From positions 1 through 64,000 of the forward strand of contig CAIJMU010000187.1 in assembly GCA_903821875.1 (NCBI GenBank): a stretch of DNA of 64,000 nucleotides. Reading direction: 5' to 3'. Positions 42,446 through 59,880 of this stretch are shown piece after piece. Numbering within the stretch: position 1 is the first letter of the stretch; each line of letters starts with the position of its first letter. Under the pieces are notes generated by a model. That model was not told the DNA's origin, did no database searches, and saw only the letters and a program-made list of their open reading frames with translations. A program made the translations under genes and the position numbers. The stretch is from an uncultured Spirochaetota bacterium. GTDB lineage: Bacteria; Spirochaetota; Spirochaetia; Treponematales; Rectinemataceae.

Positions 42446-42501
42446 TCGATGCCTCCTAGTGACACTCTCCGAGAGTAGCACAGCCTCGCTCCTTACGCAA
42501 A

Positions 42502-43385: not shown

Positions 43386-44257
43386 CGGCAAAGGTCCCCG
43401 AGACGCCTGCCAGCGCGGCGGAAATTTCAGCCCTTGCAGCTAGGGCGAAGTCAGTGCGTCGCGCCTGCCTCCAGTCCATCGCCACCCTCGGCATAGGCCA
43501 CGTGGGTGGCTCCATGTCCGTCGTGGAGATACTCGTAGCCCTGTATTTCCGCCACCTCCGTCTTGATCCGGCTGACAGCAAGGCTGCAGACCGTGACTGG
43601 TTTGTCCTTTCCAAGGGACACGCGGGTCCCGCCCTCTACGCCACCCTCGCCGAAAAGGGCTACCTCCCGAAAGAACTCCTTTCAACACTGAACAAGGGCG
43701 GGACCTCCCTGCCGAGCCACGCTGACAGAAAGCTCACTCCCGGCGTCGACATGAGCACGGGCTCGCTCGGGCAGGGCTTTTCGGCCGCCACGGGCATCGC
43801 CCTCGGCCTCAGGCTGGACGGCCCCCGCTCAGACGGGAGCACCAAGCGCTGCTGGGTGATCATCGGAGACGGGGAGAGCGACGAGGGCCAGGTCTGGGAG
43901 GCCGCATCCTTTGCGGCCCACTACGGCCTCGACAACCTCATCGCTTTCACCGACGCGAACAAATTCCAGATCGACGGCAGCACCGAGGCCGTGATGAACC
44001 TCCGCGACCTCTGTGCCAAGTGGGAGGCCTTCGGCTGGAAAGCCCTCCGCGTCGATGGCCACGACTTCGCTGCCCTTGACCGGGCCATCCTCGCGGCAAA
44101 GACAGAAAAGGGCAGACCAGTGATGATCATACTCGATACGATCAAGGCCAAGGGCGTCCCCGCCCTCGAAGGCAGGGCCGAGAGCCACAACGCGCCCTTC
44201 ACCGCCGTCGAAATGGCCGCAGTGGATGCTGCCAGCGGGGAGGCCCTCCATGGCTGA
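43382..44257 (+). CDS. sqwG: Transketolase N-terminal half (SqwG-like)
   Basis: 291 residues containing the thiamine-diphosphate part of transketolase: GHVGGSMSVVEIL, SKGHAGPALYATLA, and the cofactor motif GDGESDEGQVWEAASFA ending in DANKFQIDG. The other half is the next gene. In the sulfo-TK pathway such a split enzyme moves C2 units from sulfofructose, then from sulfoerythrulose, to glyceraldehyde 3-phosphate. The same halves also serve ordinary pentose metabolism in anaerobes; the sulfo assignment rests on the neighbours. Confidence 0.8.
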   Translation: MTAKVPETPASAAEISALAARAKSVRRACLQSIATLGIGHVGGSMSVVEILVALYFRHLRLDPADSKAADRDWFVLSKGHAGPALYATLAEKGYLPKELLSTLNKGGTSLPSHADRKLTPGVDMSTGSLGQGFSAATGIALGLRLDGPRSDGSTKRCWVIIGDGESDEGQVWEAASFAAHYGLDNLIAFTDANKFQIDGSTEAVMNLRDLCAKWEAFGWKALRVDGHDFAALDRAILAAKTEKGRPVMIILDTIKAKGVPALEGRAESHNAPFTAVEMAAVDAASGEALHG

Positions 44258-45188
44258 CCGTGAACTTCGCGCAGTCTACGCGCAAAAGCTGGTGGCTTTG
44301 GCCGCCAGGGATCCCCGGGTCTGCGTCCTCGAAGCTGATCTGGCCAAGGCCACTGGTACCGGTCCCTTTGCAGCGGCCTACCCCGAGCGTTTCTTCAACG
44401 TCGGTGTCGCTGAGGCCAACCTTGTCGGCGTCGCCTCCGGCCTTTCTGCCACCGGCAGGAAACCCTTCGCGGCCACCTTCGGTTGCTTTGCCAGCCGCCG
44501 CGCCTTCGACCAGTTCTTCCTTTCAGCCAATTATGCGGGTCTTGAGGTAGTCCTTGTCGGTACCGACCCCGGTGTCACGGCAGCCTACAACGGCGGCACC
44601 CACATGCCCCTCGAGGATCTGGCCCTCATGCGCACGGTGCCCGGCCTCGCCATCGTCGAGCCCGCCGATCCGACATCCCTCGAAGCTGCCATCACCCTCG
44701 CCCTCGAGCGGAAGGGCTGCACCTACCTCAGGCTCCAGAGGAAGAGCGCTCCGGAACTCTACCAGGCGAATGAGCATTTCGAATTCGGGAAGGCCAAGCT
44801 GCTCAGGCGTGGAAAGGATGTCACCCTCGTCGCATTGGGCGCCCTTATGGTCGCCGAAGCGCGCAAGGCAGCGGAGACCCTCGCCGCCGAAGGCATCGAA
44901 GCCACCCTGGTCGATGCCTTCACGCTGGCGCCCCTGGACGGAAAACTCCTCCTCGAACTCGCCGGCGAGACCAGGCGCATGGTCAGCTGCGAGAACCACC
45001 GCGTCACCGGAGGCCTCGGCTCGGCGCTCGCGGAGCTGCTAGCAGAAGCGGGAGTTCCCGCACGGCTCGCGCGCATCGGTGTCGCTGCCGATCTCTTCGG
45101 CGAAGTCGGAACCCAGGACTGGCTAGCGGAGCACTTCGGACTGACCGCCCCCCATATCGCCGCTGCGGCACGGGATCTGGTGAAATAG
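44250..45188 (+). CDS. sqwH: Transketolase C-terminal half (SqwH-like)
   Basis: 312 residues: a pyrimidine-binding Tkt domain (LEADLAKATGT, FFNVGVAEANLVGVASGL with the catalytic Glu, NYAGLEVVLVGTDPGV) and the C-terminal domain (VSCENHRVTGGLGSAL). The ATG at 44250 is preceded by GGGGAGG inside the sqwG end, giving an 8-base overlap. It should form the active transketolase with the preceding protein. Confidence 0.8.
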   Translation: MADRELRAVYAQKLVALAARDPRVCVLEADLAKATGTGPFAAAYPERFFNVGVAEANLVGVASGLSATGRKPFAATFGCFASRRAFDQFFLSANYAGLEVVLVGTDPGVTAAYNGGTHMPLEDLALMRTVPGLAIVEPADPTSLEAAITLALERKGCTYLRLQRKSAPELYQANEHFEFGKAKLLRRGKDVTLVALGALMVAEARKAAETLAAEGIEATLVDAFTLAPLDGKLLLELAGETRRMVSCENHRVTGGLGSALAELLAEAGVPARLARIGVAADLFGEVGTQDWLAEHFGLTAPHIAAAARDLVK

Positions 45189-45221: not shown

Positions 45222-45698
45222 ATGAAGTTGGCAATTGCATCTGACCTTTCCGGATTCCCGCTTAGGCAGGAGATCGTGAAGCACCTGAAGGAAAACCATC
45301 CCGATATCGAGGTGATCGACTTCGGCATCGAGGACGCTGACCATCCCCAGCCCTATTTCGTACAGGCGCCCAAGGTCGCCACCGCCATCCAGAAGGGCGA
45401 GGCTGAAAAGGGCATCCTCATCTGCGGCACCGGCCAGGGCATGGCCATCGTCGCGAACAAGCACAGGGGCGTGTACGCCTGCGTGGTCGACGATGTCTTT
45501 TCGGGCGAAAGGGCGAAGATCGTCAACAACTCCAATGTCATCACGATGGGCGGCTGGATCACCGCGCCCTTCCTCGGCTGCCAGATCGTGGACGCCTGGC
45601 TTTCCATGTCCTTCACCCAGAAAATGGAATTCAAGAAGGACTTCCTCACCAATGCCTTCAACAAGGTCGTCGAGATCGAGGCGGAGCAGTTCAAATGA
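45222..45698 (+). CDS. sqwI: RpiB/LacAB-family isomerase (SqwI-like)
   Basis: 158 residues of the RpiB/LacAB fold, with the active-site loop ILICGTGQGMAI (Cys acting as base) and NSNVITMGGWIT. In the sulfo-TK route an enzyme of this family (SqwI) isomerises 4-deoxy-4-sulfoerythrose to sulfoerythrulose, preparing it for a second transketolase step. A normal ribose-5-phosphate isomerase B is the alternative. AAGGAGA precedes the ATG; the stop overlaps the next start (ATGA). Confidence 0.78.
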   Translation: MKLAIASDLSGFPLRQEIVKHLKENHPDIEVIDFGIEDADHPQPYFVQAPKVATAIQKGEAEKGILICGTGQGMAIVANKHRGVYACVVDDVFSGERAKIVNNSNVITMGGWITAPFLGCQIVDAWLSMSFTQKMEFKKDFLTNAFNKVVEIEAEQFK

Positions 45699-47137
45699 GC
45701 GCGACTTACACGGTGAGCGACAGCGACGACGGCAGGCTCATAGCGGGTCTTGTCGCCAAGGCGCGTGCCGCTCAGGCTATCGCTGCCACCTGGGACCAGG
45801 AGCGCATCGACGAGGTCTGCCTCGCCGTGGGCTGGGCTGTCTACAACGACGCGAACATCCGTGTCATGGCTCGTGCCGCAGTCGACGAGACGGGCATGGG
45901 TGTCTTCGAGGACAAGCTCACCAAGCACAAGAACAAGGTATTGGGAGTACTCAGGGACATCAAGACGGCCAGGACTGTGGGTTGTATCGACTATGACGAA
46001 GCGAAGGGCATCATGAAATTCGCCAAGCCAGTCGGCGTAGTCGGTGCCCTCGCCCCCGTCACCAACCCGACCGCGACACCCTCCTCCAATGGCCTGTCCA
46101 TCCTCAAAGGCCGCAACGCCGTCATCTTCGCCCCCCACCCCAAGGCCAGGGGCGCATCGAAGCTGGCCTGCGACTTCATGAGGGAAGCGCTCGGGAAGGT
46201 CGGAGCCCCCGAGGACCTGGTACAGTGCATCGAAGAGCCCTCGATCGAGCGTACCGGCGAGCTGATGAGGCAGGTGGACCTCGTGGTGGCCACCGGCGGC
46301 GGGCCGATGGTAAAGGCCGCCTATTCCTCCGGCACGCCGGCCTTTGGCGTCGGTCCTGGCAATGCTGTGCAGTTGCTCGCCGAGGACGCCGATCCTGTCG
46401 ACGCCGCCGCGAAGATATCGCTCAGCAAGGCCTTTGACAACGCAACCTCCTGCTCGAGCGAGAATTCGGTGGTAGCCCACGCCGCTGTCTACGATGCCTT
46501 TGTCGCTGCGATGAAGGAAAAGGGTGCCTACCTCTGTACCGCCGACGAGAAAACCCGCCTCCGCGCCTGGCTCTGGCCCGTCGGCAAGGACGGCCACGAG
46601 GCCCTCAATCCGAAAGTGATCGCCCGCACCGCGATGGTCGTCGCAGAGGGCGCGGGCATCAAGGTGCCGGATGGAACAAGGGTCCTCATGGTGGAGGCCC
46701 AGCTGCCGCGAAGGGGCGGAGAAGCAGTGGACAAGTGGGCCCAGGAAAAGATCTCCCCCGTCCTGGCATTGTGGAAGTGCCCCGATTTCCACAGTGGCCT
46801 CGAAGCCCTCGTGCTCATCACCGATGCCTGCGGCACAGGCCACTCCTCGGGTCTCTTCAGCCAGAAGGACGAGTACATACAGGCGATGGGACTGACCATG
46901 CGCTCGAGCCGGATCATGGTCCGCCAGGGCATGGCCTCGGGCAATGGGGGCACCTTCGCCAACGGCATGCCCTCTACCGTCACCCTGGGCTGCGGCAGCT
47001 GGGGCGGAAACATCACCACTGAGAACATCCACTGGAAGCACTTCATCAACGTGACCTGGCTGGCCCTCCCCCTTCCGATGAACCGCCCCTCCGACGAGGA
47101 GATCTTCGGAAGCCACTGGGCCAGGTACGGGAAGTAA
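45695..47137 (+). CDS. sqwD: CoA-acylating aldehyde dehydrogenase (SqwD/SauS-like sulfoacetaldehyde dehydrogenase)
   Basis: 480 residues of the EutE/AdhE-type acylating aldehyde dehydrogenases. GVVGALAPVTNPTATPSSNG marks the CoA-linked subgroup, catalytic Cys253 sits in NATSCSSENS, and GPGNAV and NGGTFANGMPSTVTLGCGSWGG, cut here, complete the fold. SauS-type enzymes convert sulfoacetaldehyde to sulfoacetyl-CoA with NAD(P)+. The presence right before an ADP-forming CoA ligase supports that role; another short-chain aldehyde remains possible. Its start overlaps sqwI by 4 bases. Confidence 0.8.
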   Translation: MSATYTVSDSDDGRLIAGLVAKARAAQAIAATWDQERIDEVCLAVGWAVYNDANIRVMARAAVDETGMGVFEDKLTKHKNKVLGVLRDIKTARTVGCIDYDEAKGIMKFAKPVGVVGALAPVTNPTATPSSNGLSILKGRNAVIFAPHPKARGASKLACDFMREALGKVGAPEDLVQCIEEPSIERTGELMRQVDLVVATGGGPMVKAAYSSGTPAFGVGPGNAVQLLAEDADPVDAAAKISLSKAFDNATSCSSENSVVAHAAVYDAFVAAMKEKGAYLCTADEKTRLRAWLWPVGKDGHEALNPKVIARTAMVVAEGAGIKVPDGTRVLMVEAQLPRRGGEAVDKWAQEKISPVLALWKCPDFHSGLEALVLITDACGTGHSSGLFSQKDEYIQAMGLTMRSSRIMVRQGMASGNGGTFANGMPSTVTLGCGSWGGNITTENIHWKHFINVTWLALPLPMNRPSDEEIFGSHWARYGK

Positions 47138-47141
47138 GACC

Positions 47142-48266
47142 ATGAAGCTCCACGAGCACGAGGCCAAGGAAGTCTTCGCAAAGGCAGGGATTCCGGTCCC
47201 GCGTTCCTTCCTCGCCCTGGACGCAGCGGCGGCAAGCCAGGCAGCAACTACGATCGGTTTCCCCTGCGTCCTGAAGTCCCAGGTCCTCATGGGCGGACGC
47301 GGAAAGGCCGGGCTCATCAGACTCGTCAAGGATGCTCCAGCGGCCCAGGAAGCCGCGCTGGAGCTCTTCGCAAGCCCCCATGGCGTCCACAAGCTCCTCG
47401 TCGAAGAAGCGGTCGCAATTGAACGGGAAATCTACCTTTCCATCACCGTCGATCCGGTCGCCGCGGAAGCGGTCGTGCTGGCCTGCGCCCAGGGTGGGGT
47501 GGAGATCGAGGAACTCGCGGCCACCGCACCCGAAAAGATCTTCCGCGAGAGCGTGAGCCTTTCCGAGGGCTTCCTTCCCTTCAGGGCGCGAAACCTCTGC
47601 ATGTCCCTCGGACTCTCGGGCGACCTTGCCAAACAGGCTGCTGCCATCCTCGACGCCCTGTGGAAGTGCTTCCGCGCCAACGATGCCGAGCTCGTGGAAA
47701 TCAATCCCCTCTTTGTAACCAAATCCGGCACCCTCATCGCCGGGGACGGCAAGCTCCTCATCGACGATTCCTCCCTGTTCAGGCAGGCAGGCCGCGAAGC
47801 GGGGCGGGATTACTACGATTCAGATGCCGCCTTCGAGGCAGCAAAGGAGGGCATACCCTACCTCCAGTTCGACGGTGACATCTCGCTGATGTGCGCCGGA
47901 GCGGGCCTTACCACCGTCGTCTACGACCTCATCGTCGACGAAGGCGGAACGGTCGCAAACTACCTCGAGTTCGGCGGACCCAACTACCGCAAGGCCGTCC
48001 GTGCCATGGAGCTCTGCCTCAAGAACGATCCCAAGGTAATATTAATTGTGACCTTTGGCACCATAGCCCGGGCCGACGTCATGGCCGAAGGTATCACTGA
48101 CGCCATCGCACGGCTCAAGCCGAAATGCCCGATCATCCCCTGCATCAGGGGCACAGGCGAGGACAAGGCCGTGGAGATGCTCCGCGCGGCTGGCCTCGAA
48201 CCCCTCTTCGACACCGAGGAAGCAGTGCGCAAGGCTGTCGCACTGGCCAAGGGAGGCTATCGATGA
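47142..48266 (+). CDS. ADP-forming acyl-CoA ligase, SucC-like beta subunit (SqwKL-type)
   Basis: 374 residues: ATP-grasp N-domain (MKLHEHEAKEVFAKAGIPVP, KSQVLMGGRGKAGLI), the region AELVEINPLFVT, and a C-terminal ligase domain GGTVANYLEFGGPN with VILIVTFGTIARAD. The fold is that of succinyl-CoA synthetase beta. Preceded by an acylating dehydrogenase, it should release the acid from acyl-CoA and form ATP. In sulfo-TK clusters this is the sulfoacetate-CoA ligase pair SqwKL; I cannot say which letter belongs to which subunit. Overlaps the next gene by ATGA. Confidence 0.8.
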   Translation: MKLHEHEAKEVFAKAGIPVPRSFLALDAAAASQAATTIGFPCVLKSQVLMGGRGKAGLIRLVKDAPAAQEAALELFASPHGVHKLLVEEAVAIEREIYLSITVDPVAAEAVVLACAQGGVEIEELAATAPEKIFRESVSLSEGFLPFRARNLCMSLGLSGDLAKQAAAILDALWKCFRANDAELVEINPLFVTKSGTLIAGDGKLLIDDSSLFRQAGREAGRDYYDSDAAFEAAKEGIPYLQFDGDISLMCAGAGLTTVVYDLIVDEGGTVANYLEFGGPNYRKAVRAMELCLKNDPKVILIVTFGTIARADVMAEGITDAIARLKPKCPIIPCIRGTGEDKAVEMLRAAGLEPLFDTEEAVRKAVALAKGGYR

Positions 48267-49165
48267 GCGTCTTCATCGACCGCGATGACACTATCCTCAT
48301 CCAGGGCATCACCGGCAGCGAGGGTTCCTTCTGGACCAGGCACATGATCGAACTCGGCACCACCGTCGTTGTCGGCGTAACCCCCGGCAAGGAAGGCCAG
48401 AGCGTCGAGGGCATCCCCGTCTACCACTCGGTGCGCCGGGCTGTCGCCGCACATCCAGCCAATGCTGCCATGATCTTCGTGCCTCCGCGCTTTACCAAGG
48501 ACGCCGTCTTCGAGGCCCTCGACTCAGGCATCAGGAAGATCGTCACGATAGCCGAGGGGATTCCCCTCCACGAATGCCTCGAGATCAGGGCTGCCGCCCG
48601 CGACCGGGGCGCCCGCGTGGTCGGCGGCAATACCTCGGGCGTCATCAGTCCCGGCCGCGCCATGATGGGCATGTTCCCCTACTGGATAGAACGGGTCTAC
48701 AAACCAGGGCGCATCGGCATCATGACACGCTCCGGAAGCCTCACGAACGAAGTGACCGCCATGGTCGTAGCCGCAGGTTTCGGCGTCTCGAGCCTTATCG
48801 GTGTGGGTGGCGACTCCGTGCCCGGCACGCGCTTTGCGGAACTCCTTCCCGACTTCCAGGCCGACACTGGCACTGACGCGGTCGTCATAATTGGTGAGTT
48901 GGGCGGAACGATGGAGGAGGAAGTGGCCGAGGCCATGGAAGCCCGGCGCTTTAACAAACCCCTTGTGGCCTTCCTCGGCGGGCGCAACGCCCCCAAAGGC
49001 AGGCGCATGGGCCACGCAGGAGCCATCGTCACGGGAGGCAAGGGTACGGTCGAAGGCAAGACAGCCACCCTCAGGAAAGCTGGCGCCCTGGTAGCCGCAC
49101 GCCCCCGTGAGGTCGGCAGCCTCCTTTTCGAACTCCTGGGCAGAAATCCTGGGTCGAAGGCCTGA
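48263..49165 (+). CDS. ADP-forming acyl-CoA ligase, SucD-like alpha subunit (SqwKL-type)
   Basis: 300 residues of the SucD fold: CoA-binding Rossmann ITGSEGSFWTRHMI, GVTPGKEGQ, and the phospho-histidine loop MGHAGAIVTGGKGT. A complete active site suggests it is functional with the preceding subunit. SucD in the TCA cycle has a slightly different N-terminus; the genomic context points to a sulfoacetyl-CoA substrate. Stop and next start share an A (TGATG at 49163-49167). Confidence 0.8.
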   Translation: MSVFIDRDDTILIQGITGSEGSFWTRHMIELGTTVVVGVTPGKEGQSVEGIPVYHSVRRAVAAHPANAAMIFVPPRFTKDAVFEALDSGIRKIVTIAEGIPLHECLEIRAAARDRGARVVGGNTSGVISPGRAMMGMFPYWIERVYKPGRIGIMTRSGSLTNEVTAMVVAAGFGVSSLIGVGGDSVPGTRFAELLPDFQADTGTDAVVIIGELGGTMEEEVAEAMEARRFNKPLVAFLGGRNAPKGRRMGHAGAIVTGGKGTVEGKTATLRKAGALVAARPREVGSLLFELLGRNPGSKA

Positions 49166-50709
49166 TGGCTGCATCCGGGGGGGATTCCAGGGCGAGGTCA
49201 CCGGAGAACCGCCATACCGGTCCCCAGTCAGGCCCCCAGCCCATCCTGCCGCCCCGCGAGCGCAAGGCCCCCTCCCCCCAGCGCCGCCTCGCGATACTCG
49301 GCATTGGGATAGTCGTACTTGTGCTTGTATTCGGGGCACGCATCCCTGAGTCGATCCGTACCGTTCACGGCGCGACCCTCGCCCCTTCTGGCCAGCACGC
49401 CCTTGCCGTCCTGGCCTTTGCCCTCGTGCTCTGGATCGGGGAGGCCCTCCCCTTCCACATGACAGGCTTTATCGCCATGGGACTCCTTGCCCTCGTGAAT
49501 GTCCAATCCTGGTCGGAGCTCGTCAAGACCGGCTTTGGCGACGAAGCGACAGTCTTCTTCATCGGCGTACTCGCCCTTGCCTCTGCATTGGGTCGATCGG
49601 GCCTCGCCGCCCGCCTCGGCCGCCTCGTCCTCCGTTTCGCAGGAGGCTCGACGCGCGCCCTGGTCTTCTGGTTCCTGGTTGCAGGTGCCTTCCTCGCGAT
49701 GTGGGTGACGGCCCTGGCCGCGGCTGCCCTCATGCTGCCCCTGGCCCGAGGCATCCTCCGTGACGAGGGCGACGAGCCGGGAAGCAAGTTCGGCGCTGCC
49801 CTCATGCTAGCCGTGGCCTTCGGCCCCCTTGTCGGCGCCTGCGGCGCGCCCTCGGGCTCGGGCTCCAATCCCGTCGCCCTCCGTTTTTTGGCCGACATCG
49901 CCCAATTCCATATCAGTTACCTCGACTGGATGCGTATCGGCATTCCCGTCGTCATCGCCCTCCTCCCCCTGGCCTGGGCTGCGATCCTCCTCCTCTTCCC
50001 CCCCGAACGCAGGCGGCTGCGTAGCCCAGGCACGAATCTCCTGGCGGCAGGTTCCCAGAAGGCGACGCCGCTCTCTCGCGACGAAAAGGCTACGGGCATC
50101 GTCTTTCTCCTCGTCGTCGCCTGCTGGCTCGGAGCGCCCTGGCTTGAAAAGCTCGTAAGTGTGAAGATATCCCTGGCCCTCGTGGCCGCCCTCGGCGCGG
50201 CCGCCCTCTTCCTTCCCGGCCTCACTTCCTTCCGCTGGAAGGAGCTTGAAAAGGACATGGACTGGGCAGGCATCCTCCTCATCGCAACGGGTATCGCCCT
50301 CGGCACGGCCCTCTACAAGAGCGGCGCGGCAGCCTGGGCCGCATCCCTGGTGCTGGGAGGCATCGGCTCCCTCTCGCCCTTCTGGCGCATCGCGGCGGTG
50401 GTCGTGGGAGTGCTGGTGGTCAAGGTGGTCTTCTCGTCCAACACGCTGACGGGGACCATCATAGTACCCCTGATCCTGGCCCTCGGGGTCACGCTGGGCA
50501 TCGACGCGCGCCTGCCCGCCCTGGCGGCAGCCTTTACAGCCAACCTCGCGGTCATCCTGGTTACGACGAGTCCGGTCAACGTGCTTCCATGGTCGACAGG
50601 CTACTTCTCCATCGCCGACATGGCCAGGACCGGCTTGGTCTTCGCCCTGCCCGCAGCCCTGGCGCTGGCAGCGATCTTCAGCCTCCTCGGACCGCGGCTA
50701 CTAATGTAG
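49165..50709 (+). CDS. DASS/SLC13-family anion transporter (candidate sulfoacetate carrier)
   Basis: 514 residues, about 11-12 helices, with the DASS features LWIGEALPFHMTG near the start and GSGSNPVAL, plus the C-terminal TSPVNVLPWSTGYFS anion-binding hairpin. The first 45 residues are polar, Pro-rich and may be a tail or an overlong start. Family members carry dicarboxylates, sulfate and sulfonates. As last gene of the operon it may export sulfoacetate, although uptake of a sulfonate cannot be excluded. Other sulfo-TK clusters use TauE-like exporters, so this would be a substitute. Confidence 0.82.
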   Translation: MAASGGDSRARSPENRHTGPQSGPQPILPPRERKAPSPQRRLAILGIGIVVLVLVFGARIPESIRTVHGATLAPSGQHALAVLAFALVLWIGEALPFHMTGFIAMGLLALVNVQSWSELVKTGFGDEATVFFIGVLALASALGRSGLAARLGRLVLRFAGGSTRALVFWFLVAGAFLAMWVTALAAAALMLPLARGILRDEGDEPGSKFGAALMLAVAFGPLVGACGAPSGSGSNPVALRFLADIAQFHISYLDWMRIGIPVVIALLPLAWAAILLLFPPERRRLRSPGTNLLAAGSQKATPLSRDEKATGIVFLLVVACWLGAPWLEKLVSVKISLALVAALGAAALFLPGLTSFRWKELEKDMDWAGILLIATGIALGTALYKSGAAAWAASLVLGGIGSLSPFWRIAAVVVGVLVVKVVFSSNTLTGTIIVPLILALGVTLGIDARLPALAAAFTANLAVILVTTSPVNVLPWSTGYFSIADMARTGLVFALPAALALAAIFSLLGPRLLM

Positions 50710-50737: not shown

Positions 50738-52387
50738 CTAGAAGCTTATCTCCTTCGACTTCGACACCTTCATGAAGATCGCCAGGGACACAATGGTCAG
50801 CATTGTAAGGATCGTAGCCAGGGCGGCTGCGTAACCGTAGTTGCCGCGCGTCACGAAGGTATAGATTCCCAGGGTCAGGGTCACTGTCTTGGAGTTGTAG
50901 AGAATGATGGCCGCCGACAGTTCGGTGATGATCGTCACCCAGCTGATGATGGCACCGGAGATGATCCCGTTCCCCATCATCGGCACAGTGATCTCGAAGA
51001 AGGTCTTGAGCTTCGAGGAGCCGAGGCTGATCGCGGCCTCCTCCACGGTGATGGGTATCTGCTGGAGTATGGCCACCGAGGACCGGATGGTGTAAGGCAG
51101 GCGGCGTATGCAGAGGGCGATGACCATGATGGCCACCGTGCCGGTGAGCACCAGGGGCTTCTTGTTGAAGGCCATCACGAGGCTGATGCCGACCACCGAA
51201 CCGGGGATGACATAGGGCAGCATCGACATGGTGTCGATGGTCGAGGTGACGAGGTTGGGCCGCCGCACCACGAGGTAGGAGATGATGATACCTATTATGA
51301 TCACCGCCACGAGGGCAATGCCGCCGATGACAAAGGTGTTGGGGATGGAGTCGCCCATCCGCTTCAAGGCCGCAGTGTAGCTGCCGAAGGAGTAGCCAGG
51401 CTTGAAGATCTTGCCCGAGGTGTTCTGGAAGGACTGGTAGACGATGTAGAGCTGGGGCAGGAAGGAGAGCCCGACAATCCCGTAGGTGAAGAGGTGGATG
51501 AAGACGTTGAAGGGCCCCTTGGCCTTCTTGCGCTCGATGGGATGGAGGGCGTTCATCGTAAAGGCGAAGCGGCTGGAAAGGTAGCGCTGCACGAGGAAGA
51601 AGGCTGCAGTTATGAGGATGGCGATCACGCTGATGGCTGCGGCAAAGTTGAAGTCGGTACCGGTCTCACCGAGGAACTGCGTGTAGATCTCGACCGTGAA
51701 GACCCGGTAGCCCTCGCCAATGAGGAGGGGCGTGCCGAAGTCGGCGAAGGCACGCATGAACACCAGGAGGCCAGCCGCAAGGATGGTGGGCATGCAGAGA
51801 GGGATGACGACCTTGAAAAATCTTGCGACACCAGAGCAGCCCAGGTTGTCGGAAGCCTCCAGGAGGGAATTGTCGATGTTCTTGAGCGCTCCCGAGAGAT
51901 AGAGGAACACGAGGGGAAAGAGCTGGAGGGTCAGCACCAGGAGGATGCCATTGAAGCCGTAGATGTCCGGCATCACCAGGCCCGTGAGCTGCTTGACGAA
52001 GACAGTGATGATGCCCGAGCGGCCCAGGAGCTGGATCCAGGCATAGGCGCCGATAAAGGGCGCGGACATGGAACAGAGTATTATGAGAACCTGGAGGAAG
52101 GACTTCCCCTTCATTTCGTAGAGGTTGTAGAAATAGGCCATCGGGACCCCGATGACCAGGGTCAGGATAGTTGACCAGATCGTGACGTTGAAGCTGTGGA
52201 CGAGGGTCTGCCAGTAGTACTTGGCGCCGAAGAACTTCGCGAACCACTCGAGGCTCAGGCTTCCATTCTCAGCCACCACCGAATTGCGGAGGATCGCAAA
52301 CATGGGATAGAGGAGGAAGATGGCATAGGCGATGAAGATGGCGACGTAGAGCACCGTCCAGATGTCGAACATCCGCCTTCGCGCCAT
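50738..52387 (-). CDS. Two-module ABC permease, FbpB/PhnU-V-like
   Basis: 549 residues forming a double permease with about 12 helices, two BPD_transp modules and two EAA loops (LEASDNLGCSGVARFFKVVIP and VEEAAISLGSSKLKTFFEITVP, both cut). Fused double permeases are typical of Fe3+, phosphonate and related anion importers. Start ATG at 52387 is one base past the ATPase stop. Convergent with the DASS gene, so it is not in the SQ operon but may carry another sulfonate or phosphonate. Confidence 0.85.
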   Translation of the reverse strand: MARRRMFDIWTVLYVAIFIAYAIFLLYPMFAILRNSVVAENGSLSLEWFAKFFGAKYYWQTLVHSFNVTIWSTILTLVIGVPMAYFYNLYEMKGKSFLQVLIILCSMSAPFIGAYAWIQLLGRSGIITVFVKQLTGLVMPDIYGFNGILLVLTLQLFPLVFLYLSGALKNIDNSLLEASDNLGCSGVARFFKVVIPLCMPTILAAGLLVFMRAFADFGTPLLIGEGYRVFTVEIYTQFLGETGTDFNFAAAISVIAILITAAFFLVQRYLSSRFAFTMNALHPIERKKAKGPFNVFIHLFTYGIVGLSFLPQLYIVYQSFQNTSGKIFKPGYSFGSYTAALKRMGDSIPNTFVIGGIALVAVIIIGIIISYLVVRRPNLVTSTIDTMSMLPYVIPGSVVGISLVMAFNKKPLVLTGTVAIMVIALCIRRLPYTIRSSVAILQQIPITVEEAAISLGSSKLKTFFEITVPMMGNGIISGAIISWVTIITELSAAIILYNSKTVTLTLGIYTFVTRGNYGYAAALATILTMLTIVSLAIFMKVSKSKEISF

Positions 52388-52388
52388 G

Positions 52389-53504
52389 TCAGGCCCCGAT
52401 TGCGTCGTTGCGGACGCCAGCGAGGATGTTCCTGCTTCCATCAGGCGTGAAGACATTGATCATTTCGGGCCTGGGCGCAAGAGACATCACGCTGCCCTCG
52501 GGTATGGCGTTGTCGAGCCTGGATTCCTGGATGATCTCGCCCTGCTGGCCCGAGTCGAGGTGGACATGATAGTGGGTATTGGGTCCAAGGAAGACTGCGC
52601 TGTCCACCGTCGCCCTGAGTCCGGGCTCTCCCTCGGCACCGATCCTGAATTCCTCGGGTCTGATCGAAGCGAGGACGGCCATGTCCTTCCGGAATTCCTC
52701 GCGTACATTGGGAAGGGGAACCGAATAGCCGTCGGAAAAGCGAAGCGTCATGGCCGGGCCCTCCGTCTCAAGCCGGGCTTCGATGAGGTTGGTCCGCCCG
52801 ATGAAACTCGCGACAAAGAGGTTGGCTGGCCGCTGGTAGATGTCCCTCGGCGTGCCGAGGTGCTGGATGATCCCGTCCTTCATCACCGCGATGCGGTCGC
52901 TCACCGCCATCGCCTCTTCCTGGTCATGGGTGACATAGACGGTGGTGATGCCGATGCGGTGCTGGATCTCCTTGATCGCGAAGCGCATCTCGACCCGGAG
53001 CTTGGCGTCGAGGTTGCTGAGCGGCTCGTCCATCAACAGGACATCTGGCTGGATGACTAAGGCCCGCGCGAGGGCCACCCGCTGCTGCTGTCCACCTGAG
53101 AGCTTTTCGGGCATGCGGTCGCGGAACTCGGCAATCTTCATGAGCTCGAGGAATTTCAGGGTCTCGCTCTCGATGCGGTCCTTGGCGTACTTGCGGTTCT
53201 TGAGTCCGAAGGCCACGTTGCGCTTGACCGAGAGGTGGGGGAAGATCGCGTAATTCTGGAATACCATGCCGATGTTCCGCTTGCTCGGATCCACAAGGTT
53301 GATGAGCCGGTCATTGAAGAAAAAGTCGCCGCCCTCGATCGTGTTGAAGCCTGCGATCATCCTGAGCAGTGTGGTCTTGCCACAGCCCGAGGGTCCGAGG
53401 AGGGTGAAAAATTCCCCCTCCCTGATGTCGAGCGAGAGGTCGGGGATGACCGTGCTCTGGCCGTAGCGTTTGACGGCGTTCCTGATCCTGATACTTACGC
53501 TCAT
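52389..53504 (-). CDS. ABC ATPase, FbpC/PotA-like with TOBE domain
   Basis: 371 residues with Walker A GPSGCGKTT, Q-loop FQNYAIFPH, signature LSGGQQQR, Walker B VLLMDEPLSNLD and switch VTHDQEEA, followed by an OB-fold/TOBE domain after residue 240. It energises the double permease. The SQ importer at 56.8-59.9 kb lacks its own ATPase; a MsmX-like shared ATPase or this one could serve. This subunit is encoded between permease and binding protein. Confidence 0.9.
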   Translation of the reverse strand: MSVSIRIRNAVKRYGQSTVIPDLSLDIREGEFFTLLGPSGCGKTTLLRMIAGFNTIEGGDFFFNDRLINLVDPSKRNIGMVFQNYAIFPHLSVKRNVAFGLKNRKYAKDRIESETLKFLELMKIAEFRDRMPEKLSGGQQQRVALARALVIQPDVLLMDEPLSNLDAKLRVEMRFAIKEIQHRIGITTVYVTHDQEEAMAVSDRIAVMKDGIIQHLGTPRDIYQRPANLFVASFIGRTNLIEARLETEGPAMTLRFSDGYSVPLPNVREEFRKDMAVLASIRPEEFRIGAEGEPGLRATVDSAVFLGPNTHYHVHLDSGQQGEIIQESRLDNAIPEGSVMSLAPRPEMINVFTPDGSRNILAGVRNDAIGA

Positions 53505-53548
53505 GGTCTTTCGATCCTCCCCTGGGCTTTCATGTGGAATGGCGCGCC

Positions 53549-53574
53549 AAAAACCGGGCGGGTTCGCCGCCCGG
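53549..53574 (-). terminator. Intercistronic terminator after the binding-protein gene
   Basis: An 8-base stem CCGGGCGG/CCGCCCGG with a 5-base loop is followed on the minus strand by TTTTT. It lies between the binding-protein stop and the ATPase start, and would let only part of the transcripts continue, as is usual to give more binding protein than ATPase. Confidence 0.75.
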
Positions 53575-53591
53575 CTTGCACCGGTGCTTCC

Positions 53592-54602
53592 CTAGTTCAG
53601 CTTGGCCCAGAGGTCGGACCACTTCTTCTGCATCTCTTTCTTGTGGGCGGAGGTGTAGGCGATGTCCTCGTAGGCGACCTTTATGGACGACATCGGCTGG
53701 AGATTGGGATTGGAATTGGGGAACTTGGGATTGACGGTCCTGTTGGTGAGGCCCGCGACGATCTTCTGGCACTCGTCAGAGACGAGGAAGTCCATGAAAA
53801 GCCTGGCATTGTCAAGGTTCTTGGCACCGGCGACGATGGCACTGGCGGCGGGAAGCCAGACAGCCCCTTCCTTGGGATAGACGACGCGCACGTTCTTGGC
53901 GCCATCGGCGAGGAGGGCGACGGAGGGATCCTCATAGGTGAGTCCGACAACGTACTCGCCGGCGTAGACGCCCTTGTAGACCGCCGAGGAACCGGAGGTG
54001 AGCTTGCCGCTGAGCTGCTTGATCAGGGACTCGACATAGGTCCAGGCCTGGGGGCTCTCGTAGCCACCCTTTACCAGGAGGATGTTGCAGAGCTGGGCCC
54101 AGGCGCTCGAGGAGTCGGCGGGATTGGCCGAGGCGATCTTGCCCTTCAGCGCGGGATTGAGGAGATCGTCATAACTAGTGATAGTGAGCCCAAGCTGCTT
54201 CTCGAGGTCGGTGTTGACCAGGAGATTGCTGCCGGAAAGGAGGTAATTGGTGAAGAACCCCGTGGTGTTCTGGTAGCCCGCAGGAAGGCTGGCGTTGTTC
54301 TTGGCGACATATTTCTGGAAGATATCGAGGTTGGTCAGGTAGACGCCCATGTTGACGCCGCCGAACATCACGTCAGACTGGGGGTTGGCCTTCTCCGCGT
54401 TCAGCTTGGACAGGGCGGGTCCCGTGCCCATGGACTGGAGGCTGACCTTGATGTTGTTCTTGTCGCCGAAGTAGGTCAGGATGCCCTGGATCTCCCCGTC
54501 GGAGTTCGGCGAGTACACGATCAGGTTGCCTGCGGCGAAGGCCATGCTGCCCATGGCGAATAGGGCGACGACCGCGAGTGCGGCCCTGTTACGGATTTTC
54601 AT
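53592..54602 (-). CDS. ABC substrate-binding protein, FbpA/PhnS-like
   Basis: 336 residues with a signal peptide (MKIRNR, hydrophobic to AFAAG). The mature part has the type-2 periplasmic fold of iron/phosphonate/thiamine binders: LIVYSPNSDGEIQGIL, DVMFGGVNMGVYL, LNPALKGKIASANPADSSSAW. No run of tyrosines typical of Fe3+ binders is evident; a phosphonate or sulfonate ligand is possible. AGGAGG precedes the ATG. First gene of the three-gene importer. Confidence 0.85.
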   Translation of the reverse strand: MKIRNRAALAVVALFAMGSMAFAAGNLIVYSPNSDGEIQGILTYFGDKNNIKVSLQSMGTGPALSKLNAEKANPQSDVMFGGVNMGVYLTNLDIFQKYVAKNNASLPAGYQNTTGFFTNYLLSGSNLLVNTDLEKQLGLTITSYDDLLNPALKGKIASANPADSSSAWAQLCNILLVKGGYESPQAWTYVESLIKQLSGKLTSGSSAVYKGVYAGEYVVGLTYEDPSVALLADGAKNVRVVYPKEGAVWLPAASAIVAGAKNLDNARLFMDFLVSDECQKIVAGLTNRTVNPKFPNSNPNLQPMSSIKVAYEDIAYTSAHKKEMQKKWSDLWAKLN

Positions 54603-54737: not shown

Positions 54738-56816
54738 TTAGACCAACGAAGCCGCCCTGAAACAGCCCTCCCAGCGTGAGCCTCTGCGATACCAGGCCGC
54801 CGGCTGGCCAAGCGGGGCCGCAGCCTCGACCCAGGCCCTTCCAGGAGCTGCTTCCCCGGTCCACAGATGTACCCAATTGCCATCAATGATCCTGGCGCGG
54901 CGCGAGGTGGCGCCCTTCCGTAGCACCGGGGCGACCAGGAGGTCGGGACCACAGAGGAACTGGTCCTGGATGCGCCAGGCATGAGGATCGCCCTCGTCCG
55001 CGAAGAAGAGGGGCCGGAGGATGGGGGTACCGCGCGTGGAGCATTCATGGGCCAGGTCCCGGAAATAGGGTGAAAGGGCGACGCGGAGGCGGCCCATGCG
55101 GGCCAGGCCTTCCAGGGTCCCGGGATCCGAATCGAACTGCCAGTTGCTCTGGGGCCTGTTGCCCTCGTGGCTCCGCATCCAGACCGTAAAGGCCGCCATC
55201 TCCGCCCAGCGCAGGAAGAGCTCCTTGGTCCGCTTCAGGTGGAAGAGTGTCGTATAACCGCCGATGTCCGAATGGTGGTAGCCATGGCCCAGCATCGCCA
55301 GCGAGAGGGCCGCGGGGATCACGCTGGCTATGCCGTCGTCCTTCGACCAATCGACGTTCTGGTCTCCCGCCCACATGTGATGGCACCAGCGCTGGCTGCC
55401 CGAGTAGCCAGCCCGCATGAAGAAGGTCGCCTTCCCCAGCATGCCGGCTTCCTCGATAGCCTCGTAGTTGACCCGCGCCCAGAGGCTGGGCCAGAGGTTG
55501 TGGGCGTATTCCGCGGGGCTGCCGTCGAAGAGCGTACAGTCGGCAGGCAGGTACTCGCCGAAGTCGGCCATCCACCCGAGCATGCCCTGGCCCAGGAGAT
55601 TCCTCTTGATCAGCTCCTTGAACCATGTCCTGGCCGCCGGGTTGGTGAGGTCGGGAATGCCGGCCTCGAACTCGCCGGCGTCCATGCGGTAGCTCGTGCC
55701 AGCGTGGCTTTTGACCAGGAGGCCGAGCCGGTCGAGTTCCCCGAAGATCGGCTTGTCAGAGGCGAAGTAGCAGTTGACATAGCCTAAGAAGGCGATCCCC
55801 TTTTCTCCTAATTGGGCACATTCGCGCTTCAGGTCAGGATAGAGGGAAGTATCGAGTTCCCAGTTCCAGGAAAGCCGCTTTCCGAAGCCCGTGTAGCGCA
55901 CGCCTGCCCAGTCCTGGGCCCAGATGGCAGAGACAGGCACGCCGGCCGCACGCGCGGCCTGGGCCTTCGCCGTGCAGGTCTCAAGACCGCCCTGGATGCC
56001 CAGGGTGACTCCCTCGTGCACATAGTCAGGCGGTTCCGGCTGGAGGCCGAAATAGCGGGCGGTTTCCGAGGCGAGATCCTGCATGCCGGCGGCGGAGCCG
56101 AACACGAGCCTCCGGGGTTTCTGCCTCGAGAGGAGGATGGCGCGGTCTTTGCCCCGGAAATCGAATTCCGACCAGGCATCGGTCTCGAGGTGGACACGGA
56201 GCCTCCGCGAGGTCGCATAACTCGGCTGGGGAAAGAAGGTCCACCACCAGGTGCCTCCCGCGCCGTCGGCCAGGTCGGCCTTCCAGGTTGTGAGGGTGAG
56301 CTTGTTGCGGCCCACTCCCTGCTCGCTCGTCCACAGGGGCAGCTTCCGCCCCCGCAGGTTGAAACGGGAGAACTGCTCGCCACAGCCGTAGATGCCCTCG
56401 CCCGGTTCAGTGACCAGGGAAAGCCTGTAGCGGTTGGCCCACTCGGGCCCTTCCAGGAATTCCAGGACGAGGCTTTCGGCTTCTCCGGCTCCACCCGGCA
56501 GCTCAGCGCGGCCGGAGTCCTCGGGACCCCGCCTCGGGCCCTTCTCCATGGCTATCGCAATCCGGACGAGGGCTCCACCAGGGCTTCGGAGAAGGACTTC
56601 AGCTGTCTCGCCCCGGCTCGAAAGCTCAGCCAGAGGCAGGGGCGTCCAGCCGGAGAGGCGGTCCTTCGTGCGGAAGTTGCCGCGATACATCCGGTAGCTC
56701 GCCTCGCCCTGGGCGAGGGCCAGGAAGGGACGCGAGGAGGTATGCGCAATGACGGTCTTCCCGTCGAGGCGAATCTCGAAACCCTCCCCTACCGCAGCCA
56801 GCTCCCAGCGGCCCAT
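54738..56816 (-). CDS. yihQ: Sulfoquinovosidase (GH31, YihQ-like)
   Basis: 692 residues of glycoside hydrolase family 31. It releases SQ from SQ-glycerol and related alpha-sulfoquinovosides. The catalytic nucleophile Asp418 (WMADFGEYLP) and acid/base Asp485 (MWAGDQNVDW) are present. The sulfonate-reading residues known in E. coli YihQ map with one constant offset of +13: Gln288 to Gln301, Arg301 to Arg314, Trp304 to Trp317, Tyr508 to Tyr521, Asp405 to Asp418, Asp472 to Asp485. This makes SQ specificity very likely. No signal peptide is seen, so the glycoside is imported first. Start at ATG 56816 (GAGG eight bases upstream); GTG 56825 is possible. Last gene of the SQ import operon. Confidence 0.93.
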   Translation of the reverse strand: MGRWELAAVGEGFEIRLDGKTVIAHTSSRPFLALAQGEASYRMYRGNFRTKDRLSGWTPLPLAELSSRGETAEVLLRSPGGALVRIAIAMEKGPRRGPEDSGRAELPGGAGEAESLVLEFLEGPEWANRYRLSLVTEPGEGIYGCGEQFSRFNLRGRKLPLWTSEQGVGRNKLTLTTWKADLADGAGGTWWWTFFPQPSYATSRRLRVHLETDAWSEFDFRGKDRAILLSRQKPRRLVFGSAAGMQDLASETARYFGLQPEPPDYVHEGVTLGIQGGLETCTAKAQAARAAGVPVSAIWAQDWAGVRYTGFGKRLSWNWELDTSLYPDLKRECAQLGEKGIAFLGYVNCYFASDKPIFGELDRLGLLVKSHAGTSYRMDAGEFEAGIPDLTNPAARTWFKELIKRNLLGQGMLGWMADFGEYLPADCTLFDGSPAEYAHNLWPSLWARVNYEAIEEAGMLGKATFFMRAGYSGSQRWCHHMWAGDQNVDWSKDDGIASVIPAALSLAMLGHGYHHSDIGGYTTLFHLKRTKELFLRWAEMAAFTVWMRSHEGNRPQSNWQFDSDPGTLEGLARMGRLRVALSPYFRDLAHECSTRGTPILRPLFFADEGDPHAWRIQDQFLCGPDLLVAPVLRKGATSRRARIIDGNWVHLWTGEAAPGRAWVEAAAPLGQPAAWYRRGSRWEGCFRAASLV

Positions 56817-56826
56817 GCTGTTCACC

Positions 56827-57654
56827 TCATCCCTTCACGCCGCCGGCGGACACGCCCCGGATGAGGAAGCGCTGCATCGAGACGGTGAAAATAAATATAG
56901 GCAGTAGTAGTATGGTCCCGCCAGCGCAGACCTGGCCCCAGGTCAGGATGTCCGAGCCTATGAGGCTGTTGATGGAGACAGGCGCAGTCCTTGCATTGAT
57001 GCCCGTGAGGATGAGGGCGTAGAGGAACTCGTTCCAGCTGTTGATGAAGGCGAAGACCGCCCCAACCACGAGGCCGGGCGAGACGATGGGAAGGAAGACG
57101 CGGCGGAACACCCCGAAACGTGTGCAGCCATCCACCATGGCAGCCTCCTCGTAGCTCTTGTCCACTGCCGTGAAGAAGGGGAGGAGGAGCCAGATCACGT
57201 AGGGCACGTTGAAACTCGTGTGCGCAAGCGTGAGTCCGAAGACCGTGTCGCGGATGCCGAGGGACTTGAACATCAAGTACAGGGCAATGACCAGGGAGAT
57301 CTGCGGCAGCATGCGGAAAACCAGGAAGCTGTAGGCCAGGAGGTTCCTGCCCTTGAACCTGAAGCGCGATATCCCGTAGGCGGCCATCGCGGCGACGATG
57401 ATCGACGCTGCAGTCGACAGGAGGCCGACCTCGACCGAGGTCCACAAGGACTTCACGAAGCCGGGACGGGCGAGAACCAGTTCGTAGCTCCGGAGCGAGA
57501 GCTGGGAGAATTCGAAGGGCTTCGCCGAGAGGATGATGACGTCCCTCCGGAAGCCATTCAAGAGGGTGATCCCGATCGGGAAGAGCTCCACAATCAGCAC
57601 CAGGAAGGCTGCGACGGCGATCGCGATATTCACGATTGGACGGTTTCGCTTCAT
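56827..57654 (-). CDS. ABC sugar permease 2 (MalG-like) of the SQ importer
   Basis: 275 residues, six helices, with the EAA loop YEEAAMVDGCTRFGVFRRVFLP, cut here, as in MalG/SmoH-type carbohydrate permeases. The ATG at 57654 shares one base with the upstream permease stop (TGATG). The longer upstream frame is a shadow of the first permease. With its neighbours it forms a CUT1-type importer for SQ or an SQ glycoside. Confidence 0.88.
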   Translation of the reverse strand: MKRNRPIVNIAIAVAAFLVLIVELFPIGITLLNGFRRDVIILSAKPFEFSQLSLRSYELVLARPGFVKSLWTSVEVGLLSTAASIIVAAMAAYGISRFRFKGRNLLAYSFLVFRMLPQISLVIALYLMFKSLGIRDTVFGLTLAHTSFNVPYVIWLLLPFFTAVDKSYEEAAMVDGCTRFGVFRRVFLPIVSPGLVVGAVFAFINSWNEFLYALILTGINARTAPVSINSLIGSDILTWGQVCAGGTILLLPIFIFTVSMQRFLIRGVSAGGVKG

Positions 57655-58628
57655 CAGTTGCCGGCCTTCCGCTCGAGTTCTTCGAGACTCATGTTGCGGC
57701 GCACGAGGGTAAGTGCGAAGACCACGGACAGGACGAGGAGGAAGATGGCCATCGCACTGGCCATGCCGACCTTCATGTAGGTAAAGGCCTGCTTGTTGGC
57801 GTAGAGGGAGAACAGGAGGGTCGCTGTCCCGGGGCCGCCTTCGGTCATGGCGAAGACCTCGCTGAAGATGCGGAGCGCGTCGATGAGGCGGAGGAGGAGG
57901 GCTGTCATGATGGTCGGCGTGAGCAGCGGCGTGATGATGATCCTCACACGCTGCCAGTAGCGCGCCCCGTCGATCTCGGCGGCCTCGAGGAGTTCGCCGG
58001 GAATGTTGCTGAGGCCAGCGTAGATGAGCATGAACATGAAGGGCCACATTCGCCAGATGTCCTGGAGGATGACTGCCGCGTAGGCCCAGCCCGGCGTACC
58101 AAGCCAGGAGGTCTCCGGAATGCCCAGGGCCACGAGGATCTGTGCGAGGGGGCCGTAGCGCGGCTGGAGCATGAAGCGCCAGATGATGCCAGAGAGGACA
58201 GGGAGAAAGAACACAGGAAGAAGGAGGAGGGTCCGTACAAAGCCCGCGCCGAAGAACTCACGGTTGAGGAGGAGGGCAGCGGCGTAGCCCAGGATCAGCT
58301 CGATGGGAAGCGCGATGAAGACAAAGCCCAGCTGGAGCCTGAGCGAGTTCCAGAATTCGCTGTCGGTGAAGAGTGTCAGGTAGTTTCCCATGCCCACAAA
58401 GACCCTGGGGCCGAGTCCCTCCGAGAGGGGCCAGTTCCAGGTCGACACGAAAAGGGAAAACAGTATTGGGAATATCAGTACAGCGAAGACCACCAGGAGG
58501 GCAGGAGCGAGAAAGAGAAGGGGCGCCCCCCCCCTCCCCGACCGCTTCGCGCGTGTCGGGAAAGGCGTAGCGCCCCCTGTTTCGTCTTTCCCGCTGCTGC
58601 CGCTAGTAGCCGGCTTTGGAGAGGACAT
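57654..58628 (-). CDS. ABC sugar permease 1 (MalF-like) of the SQ importer
   Basis: 324 residues with a polar N-terminal 35 residues, then six helices and the EAA loop LLEAAEIDGARYWQRVRIIITP, cut here. It matches the MalF/SmoG-type CUT1 permeases. Its start lies 26 bases inside the binding-protein gene, so translation is probably coupled. Confidence 0.88.
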   Translation of the reverse strand: MSSPKPATSGSSGKDETGGATPFPTRAKRSGRGGAPLLFLAPALLVVFAVLIFPILFSLFVSTWNWPLSEGLGPRVFVGMGNYLTLFTDSEFWNSLRLQLGFVFIALPIELILGYAAALLLNREFFGAGFVRTLLLLPVFFLPVLSGIIWRFMLQPRYGPLAQILVALGIPETSWLGTPGWAYAAVILQDIWRMWPFMFMLIYAGLSNIPGELLEAAEIDGARYWQRVRIIITPLLTPTIMTALLLRLIDALRIFSEVFAMTEGGPGTATLLFSLYANKQAFTYMKVGMASAMAIFLLVLSVVFALTLVRRNMSLEELERKAGN

Positions 58629-59880
58629 CGTTGGTCTCTTTCACGATGGCCTTTACAGCGTCAGCGGTGGGCAGCTGTCCGGTGATGCCCTGGACCCAGT
58701 ACTTCTTCACGATGTCCTGGACCTGGGCCACTTCCTTGAACCTCGGGCGGGCTACGGCATATTTCATGGAATCGGCGATGGCAGCGAGCCAGGGCATCTT
58801 CTTGGCATACTGGGGATCGGTGAGGACATCGGCGCGGGCCGGGATGGCGTTGCCTTCGACGACCTTCTGGGCCATGGCCTTGGAGGTCCACCAATAGGCG
58901 AACTCGGCGCCGCCAGCCTTGTTCTTGGCTGCGACAGGAATGCCGACTGCCCAGGCACCGCGGACGGCTACGCGCTTGGACGGGCCTCCGGGGGGCGCCG
59001 AGTAATAGACCTTGCCGGAGACCAGGGAGGTATCGGGATTCTCATAGCTGGCGATGTAGGAAGGCCAGTGGAACTGGGTCCATGCGCCCTTGGGGTCGGT
59101 GGTGAAGGAAGCAATGCGCTCGTTGTGTGCCCAGGTCTCGGAGCCCTTGGGGGACATGGTCATGAGCCTCTTGTAGAACTCCATTCCAGTGACAGCCTTG
59201 GTCTCGTCGAGGACGACCTTGGGCTTGCCGTTGACCCAGTTGATGAAACTGGTGCCGAAGGACTCCCACATGTAGATGGCTTCGGCATGGACGCCGGCTG
59301 CACCGCCGTTGAAGGGACCAAAGCCACCGACGCCGAGGGCGCTGAAGAAGCTGACCTCGTCATCGAGCTGCTTGAAGGTTACCGGCACAACGAGTTCGTA
59401 GCCATACTTGGCCTTGAAGTCCTTCTTGTACTGCGGATTGTCGATCAGGTCCTTCTTGGTGAACCACACATAGATGTTGCCGTTGATCGGGAAGGCGATG
59501 AGCTTGCCATCCCAGGTGCCGACGTCGAGCATGGCCGGGGTCACGCTGTCCTTCGGGGTCTTCTTGAAGACCTTGCCGTCGGGAAGGCTGTCCCAGGTTG
59601 ACATGAGGCTCGCGAAAACGGGGATGTTGCCCTCGTCCAAGGGAACGACATCGTAGTCGCTTGAGGTGGCGGTAACGCCGACCGAGGTCTTGGTAAGGAC
59701 CTGGGGCGGGGCGACCATCTCGACTTCGACCTTGTAGCCGGTGGCTTTCTCGAAGTCGGGGATATTGGCCTGGATGATCTTGGCCAGGGGGTCGTCCCAG
59801 AGCAGGACCTTGATGGACTGCGAACTTACCGCGACAGCCATGGACGCGAGAACGAGCGCAGCGAGGATGAGCTTTTTCAT
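58603..59880 (-). CDS. ABC sugar-binding protein of the SQ importer (SmoF-like role)
   Basis: 425 residues with a signal peptide (MKKLILAALVLASMAVAVSSQ). The mature protein is a cluster-B/D solute-binding protein (VLLWDDPLAKIIQANIPDFEKATGYKVEVE, cut here; ...AFPINGNIYVWFTKKDL) of CUT1 importers. It is first in the operon that ends with the sulfoquinovosidase, after a strong promoter and a ROK-like site, so its ligand is probably SQ or sulfoquinovosyl glycerol. CAAGGAGG stands before the ATG. Confidence 0.85.
   Translation of the reverse strand: MKKLILAALVLASMAVAVSSQSIKVLLWDDPLAKIIQANIPDFEKATGYKVEVEMVAPPQVLTKTSVGVTATSSDYDVVPLDEGNIPVFASLMSTWDSLPDGKVFKKTPKDSVTPAMLDVGTWDGKLIAFPINGNIYVWFTKKDLIDNPQYKKDFKAKYGYELVVPVTFKQLDDEVSFFSALGVGGFGPFNGGAAGVHAEAIYMWESFGTSFINWVNGKPKVVLDETKAVTGMEFYKRLMTMSPKGSETWAHNERIASFTTDPKGAWTQFHWPSYIASYENPDTSLVSGKVYYSAPPGGPSKRVAVRGAWAVGIPVAAKNKAGGAEFAYWWTSKAMAQKVVEGNAIPARADVLTDPQYAKKMPWLAAIADSMKYAVARPRFKEVAQVQDIVKKYWVQGITGQLPTADAVKAIVKETNDVLSKAGY

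Follow-up and report, generated by a model that had tools for sequence, protein, structure and literature searches.

Sulfoquinovose (SQ), a plant sulfosugar, is produced in billions of tons every year. Surveys of its breakdown pathways find the organisms that degrade it by demanding each known enzyme. One published survey required a sulfoquinovose isomerase, detected by BLAST, for its sulfo-transketolase (sulfo-TK) calls (PMC13372026), and because of that requirement it would miss clusters like the one described here. In the first step of these pathways, SQ is isomerised by SqvD, a protein of the FucI family (PMC9594981). The closest described system is the sulfo-TK variant that leads to sulfoacetate (Chu et al. 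2023; reviews PMC12890257 and PMC11659671), which has already been reported from Spirochaetes, Firmicutes and Tenericutes.

A probable sulfoacetate-type sulfo-transketolase gene cluster

The window, a stretch of 64,000 nucleotides, comes from the genome assembly of an uncultured spirochaete (G000; 4.68 Mb in 193 contigs, 97% complete). Judging from its gene content, the cluster listed in Table 1 very likely encodes a sulfo-TK pathway to sulfoacetate: SqwGH and SqwI are present, and SqwD and SqwKL are found in place of SqwF. Compared with the sulfoacetate variant as described in those reviews, the window shares SqwGH, SqwI, SqwD, SqwKL and SqvB, and likewise has a spirochaete host, but it contains no SqvD, a KduI/IolB-like cupin being encoded in its place. 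It also differs in carrying a DASS carrier rather than a TauE-type exporter, and in having an extra, PhnSTU2-like ABC transporter. Genes of the cluster recur in loci L009 and L013, and more distant counterparts are found in loci L078-L083, which are of Acholeplasma type or from Firmicutes.

Table 1. Predicted features of the sulfoquinovose gene cluster, in window coordinates. Gene identities, gene order, active-site residues and the absence of SqvD are read from the sequence; the activities, the cupin's above all, are predictions.
Feature	Position	Strand	Remarks
ROK-family regulator	40590..41858	-	divergent from cupin; 55-65% orthologs adjoin cupin in relatives; true start probably inside frame
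SqvB (DUF4867, PF16161), putative SQ ring-opening/mutarotase partner	41756..42481	-	179.6 bits; divergent from cupin/Sqw genes
KduI/IolB-like cupin, proposed SQ to sulfofructose (SF) isomerase	42630..43385	+	SqvD place; metal motif H165, H167, E172, H212
SqwG, transketolase N-terminal half	43382..44257	+	ATGA overlap with cupin
SqwH, transketolase C-terminal half	44226..45188	+	
SqwI, RpiB-like sulfoerythrose isomerase	45222..45698	+	
SqwD, CoA-acylating sulfoacetaldehyde dehydrogenase	45695..47137	+	SauS-like, 494 bits; model cut-off 600
SqwK, beta subunit, ADP-forming sulfoacetate-CoA ligase	47142..48266	+	
SqwL, alpha subunit, ADP-forming sulfoacetate-CoA ligase	48125..49165	+	
DASS-family anion symporter, probable sulfoacetate exporter (predicted substrate)	49165..50709	+	found with SqwDKL in related spirochaetes
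PhnSTU2-like ABC transporter (fused permease, ATPase, binding protein)	50738..54602	-	between DASS carrier and sulfoquinovosidase
GH31 sulfoquinovosidase (predicted), YihQ type	54738..56816	-	QQRWY pocket; nucleophile D418; acid/base D485
sugar ABC permease	56827..58047	-	MalG-like domain in C-terminal part of frame; adjoins sulfoquinovosidase in related clusters
sugar ABC permease, UgpA-like	57654..58628	-	
sugar-binding protein SBP_bac_1, probable sulfoquinovosyl-glycerol/SQ receptor (predicted substrate)	58603..59880	-	

The isethionate-type sulfo-TK cluster of genome G004 (L010) combines SqwGHI with an alcohol dehydrogenase and a TauE-like carrier. Because that cluster has these two genes while DASS carriers go with SqwDKL, we assign the DASS protein of the window, provisionally, the export of sulfoacetate. 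The PhnSTU2-like transporter has no counterpart in the other clusters compared; its substrate is perhaps a small sulfonate. Between the sugar transporter genes and an RlmN-like gene, a frame of 332 amino acids (59992-60990) matches no Pfam or NCBIfam family.

A cupin in the place of SqvD

More interesting than the sulfoquinovosidase in this cluster is its SQ isomerase, which appears to have been replaced by a non-orthologous protein. SqvD is encoded directly before SqwG in nine other spirochaete clusters (L008/G324, L013/G387, L106/G424, L103/G449, L174-L176, L178 and L179), and two of these genomes, G324 and G387, belong to the same family as G000. In the window this slot is occupied by the cupin gene. 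Orthologs of the cupin, at 72-84% identity, occur in six more spirochaete genomes, G433 (the genome of L007), G336, G358, G395, G431 and G453, which with the window makes seven genomes. The cupin gene lies directly before SqwG in six of the seven, window included, and before SqwI in G395; all six of the SqwG-linked genes share the four-base ATGA overlap of cupin stop and SqwG start. The G395 cluster (L150) retains the cupin, SqwI, SqwD, SqwKL, DASS and sulfoquinovosidase genes, while SqwGH is absent from it; a general split transketolase encoded elsewhere may serve in its stead.

The two families are mutually exclusive in the genomes surveyed. A sample of 394 genomes from the same taxonomic order has SqvD in 26, the cupin in seven, and both in none. 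Because Pfam model PF02952 missed the SqvD of G002 and so is unreliable for this family, the SqvD protein itself served as the query, and it found no SqvD ortholog in any of the seven cupin genomes; for G001, a cupin carrier that lacks SqvD, G002 was the positive control. Among 18 spirochaete SqwG clusters, ten have SqvD, six have the cupin and two have neither in view, a lack of overlap with a chance probability of 0.0015 if shared descent is ignored. In phylogenetic trees of SqwG and SqwH the cupin clusters form a single clade, with support of 100/100 and 100/99 respectively, so the exclusion may reflect one replacement event; SqwI is too short a sequence for its tree to resolve the cupin clusters. 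Cupin relatives at 55-57% identity are encoded outside Sqw clusters, so the cupins linked to Sqw genes probably make up a specialised branch.

The SqvD proteins of spirochaete sulfo-TK clusters (for example L106:1498-2811, minus strand) score about 205 bits against NCBIfam model NF048012, for which the cut-off is 700, and will therefore be overlooked in automatic annotation.

KduI and IolB are aldose-ketose isomerases that act on sugars with a carboxylate at C6. KduI has also been proposed to turn glucuronate into fructuronate (PMC3578941). The cupin of the window belongs to the KduI/IolB family in Pfam (57 bits; cut-off 23.9), and KduI is its top match by sequence, profile and fold searches alike. 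Like KduI (5-keto-4-deoxyuronate isomerase) and IolB (5-deoxyglucuronate isomerase), it has two domains and an HxHx4E...H metal site, whose ligands are invariant among the cupins and include all four of those in KduI. In contrast to both, it is only about 24% identical at the profile level, is linked to sulfoquinovose genes, and falls far short of the curated ortholog cut-offs, with 55 of the 250 bits set for KduI and 35.5 of the 205 bits set for IolB. Fold and ligands thus agree with the KduI/IolB superfamily, although the AlphaFold model (mean pLDDT 56) can be trusted only for the N-terminal half and is poor past residue 128 or so. Among the papers searched, a set that did not extend to the primary reports of the variant pathway, none of relevance ties sulfoquinovose to KduI, IolB or a cupin isomerase.

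SqvD (or SftI), of the FucI family, and the cupin are unrelated in fold and family, yet they share the place before SqwG and the proposed reaction. Because KduI and IolB isomerise C6-acid sugars, and the conversion of SQ to sulfofructose is the same reaction on a sugar with a C6 sulfonate, the cupin is likely to be a non-orthologous SQ isomerase that has replaced SqvD. It is fairly likely that sulfoquinovose isomerases include a third class, unrelated to the others, in which a KduI/IolB-like metal cupin has taken over from SqvD in one lineage of spirochaete sulfo-TK clusters and applies the known chemistry of C6-carboxylate sugar isomerases to a C6-sulfonate sugar. If the cupin is indeed the isomerase, it represents a new enzyme class at the first step of sulfoglycolysis.

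Other candidates for the isomerase

The SQ isomerase of G000 could instead be an unlinked member of the FucI family, leaving the cupin some other job, such as the interconversion of anomers or ring forms alongside SqvB. The genome encodes three FucI-family proteins outside the locus, one of them a true FucI, and the other two (C88:54450 and C134:10622) weakly match the NCBIfam sulfoquinovose isomerase model, with 64 and 50 bits against a cut-off of 700. SqvB-type proteins, moreover, also belong to the cupins, and a mutarotase role has been proposed for them (PMC11968277). Both FucI-family candidates, however, are just 22-27% identical to SqvD, the closest that this 97% complete genome comes to that enzyme, whereas members of the main SqvD group share 52-77% identity and many spirochaete SqvD proteins share 64-80%. 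Cupin carriers G336 and G358 have no SqvD match listed at an E-value of 1e-3, and G001 has none either. SqvB still occurs in several cupin clusters, so a putative mutarotase is already on hand there. We consider an unlinked FucI-family isomerase unlikely.

It is more doubtful still that the cupin acts as a different isomerase of the pathway, for example between sulfoerythrose and sulfoerythrulose, with a general or unnamed sugar isomerase handling SQ. The arrangement in G395, where the cupin gene directly precedes SqwI and SqwGH is missing, would fit such a role, as would the presence of SqwGHI without a recognised SQ isomerase in G004 and G360. Against it, SqwI, an RpiB-type protein with 73-86% identity among spirochaete clusters, is encoded in every cupin cluster long enough to show it and already fills the sulfoerythrose step, and the cupin gene sits in the place of SqvD, not that of SqwI.

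Genome G004 has no SqvD ortholog and, at L010, no linked cupin in view; the rest of its contig was not found among the 60 contigs sampled. At L195 of G360, SqwGHI lies beside a GH31 gene with Q at the R301 position, in a genome that lacks SqvD and encodes a 55% relative of the cupin on another contig. Since both SqwGHI clusters are without SqvD or a linked cupin, the absence of SqvD alone is no sign that the cupin does its work, and further types of SQ isomerase may exist. YihS had no match in five cupin genomes, a weak negative because the search had no positive control and E. coli was not picked up in the PF07221 control; AGE-family fragments are present in G000 on contigs C45 and C192.

With the cupin as SQ isomerase, the explanation as a whole, consisting of sulfoquinovosidase, sulfoacetate-type sulfo-TK pathway and cupin, is quite likely to be right. 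Sulfoquinovosyl glycerol would be imported by the sugar ABC transporter and hydrolysed in the cytoplasm by the GH31 enzyme to alpha-sulfoquinovose, a step strongly indicated by the enzyme's residues, with D418 as nucleophile and D485 as acid/base, while R314, W317 and Y521 would hold the sulfonate. SqvB, as proposed in the literature, may help to open the SQ ring, and the metal-dependent cupin, rather than a FucI-type SqvD, would convert SQ to sulfofructose. The loss of two C2 units through the action of SqwGH and SqwI would leave sulfoacetaldehyde, which SqwD and SqwKL would oxidise to sulfoacetate with a gain of ATP, and the DASS carrier would presumably export the product.

The predicted sulfoquinovosidase

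The reading frame of the GH31 enzyme, on the minus strand, spans 54738-56825 if begun at a GTG codon, or starts at 56816 if begun at ATG; residue numbers here, as in the first-pass annotation, follow the ATG start, which gives 692 residues. Its best solved relative by phmmer is YihQ of E. coli (5aed; 666 bits, E 6e-199, 47% identity), and the GH31 sulfoquinovosidases all rank far above other GH31 enzymes in that search of solved structures. In YihQ, according to the sulfoquinovosidase literature, the five residues Q262, Q288, R301, W304 and Y508 form the sulfonate/SQ pocket. The first-pass annotation had named six YihQ residues as conserved at a constant shift of +13 across about 220 residues, and every one agrees: Q288, R301, W304, D405, D472 and Y508 correspond to Q301, R314, W317, D418, D485 and Y521. 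Q262, absent from its list, is likewise kept, as Q275, so that the whole pocket is present in addition to both catalytic aspartates.

The shift also survives proper alignment, and over a longer span than had been claimed, running without gaps from YihQ position 92 to 647; before position 92 the offset is -7, +3 and +11, and after 647 it is +14. Where that annotation took the constant register as making sulfoquinovosidase activity very likely, we retain the prediction and reject the offset as independent evidence, since it reflects nothing beyond a gap-free alignment at 47% identity and breaks down in the N-terminal domain. The evidential weight therefore lies in which residues are conserved. 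The further suggestion that the enzyme anchors the interpretation of the locus holds; the gene sits in a recognisable sulfoglycolytic cluster.

The QQRWY pocket is nearly invariant in about 80 homologs from several phyla, the exceptions being a KERWY-type sequence from Acetobacteraceae and an R301Q sequence from Alicyclobacillus. The closest sulfoquinovosidases from named genomes come from Spirochaetota assemblies, with 69% identity in Spirochaetes bacterium RA.bin94. Conservation of the pocket is not automatic at 40-43% identity, because a GH31 paralog in G000 itself, on contig C178 and 40-43% identical to the enzyme of the window, has the changes R301Q and Y508F. In a fold search with the AlphaFold model (pLDDT 87), the first 23 matches in PDB are all sulfoquinovosidase chains (TM 0.90-0.94, rmsd 1.9-2.7), with E-values of 2e-73 or better as against 1e-43 for other GH31 enzymes. 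Pocket residues, paralog control and modelled structure together make it very likely that the protein is a sulfoquinovosidase. It shares with GH31 sulfoquinovosidases (YihQ, 5aed/5oht; BmSQase, 8r56; SftG, 6pnr) the fold, the catalytic pair of aspartates and the five QQRWY residues, aligned without gaps over 555 residues, but it differs from enzymes such as YihQ, in addition to its 47% identity, by a longer N-terminal domain with insertions, and it is encoded in a sulfo-TK rather than a sulfo-EMP cluster. As a further, ordinary representative of a known family, it is unsurprising when taken alone. That it might be a general alpha-glucosidase, as the name of NCBIfam model NF007746 implies (814 bits; cut-off 553), is very improbable, since the R301Q/Y508F paralog passes the same model (728 bits), whose name thus does not discriminate. 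A sulfoquinovosidase is favoured by the full sulfonate pocket, by the structures that the model of the protein matches and by the sulfoglycolytic genes around it.

The C178 paralog, a YihQ-type GH31 protein (L143:13956-16049, minus strand), probably has a different glycosidase specificity; its neighbours are genes for an MFS_2 transporter, an aldose-epimerase-like protein and two URO-D proteins.
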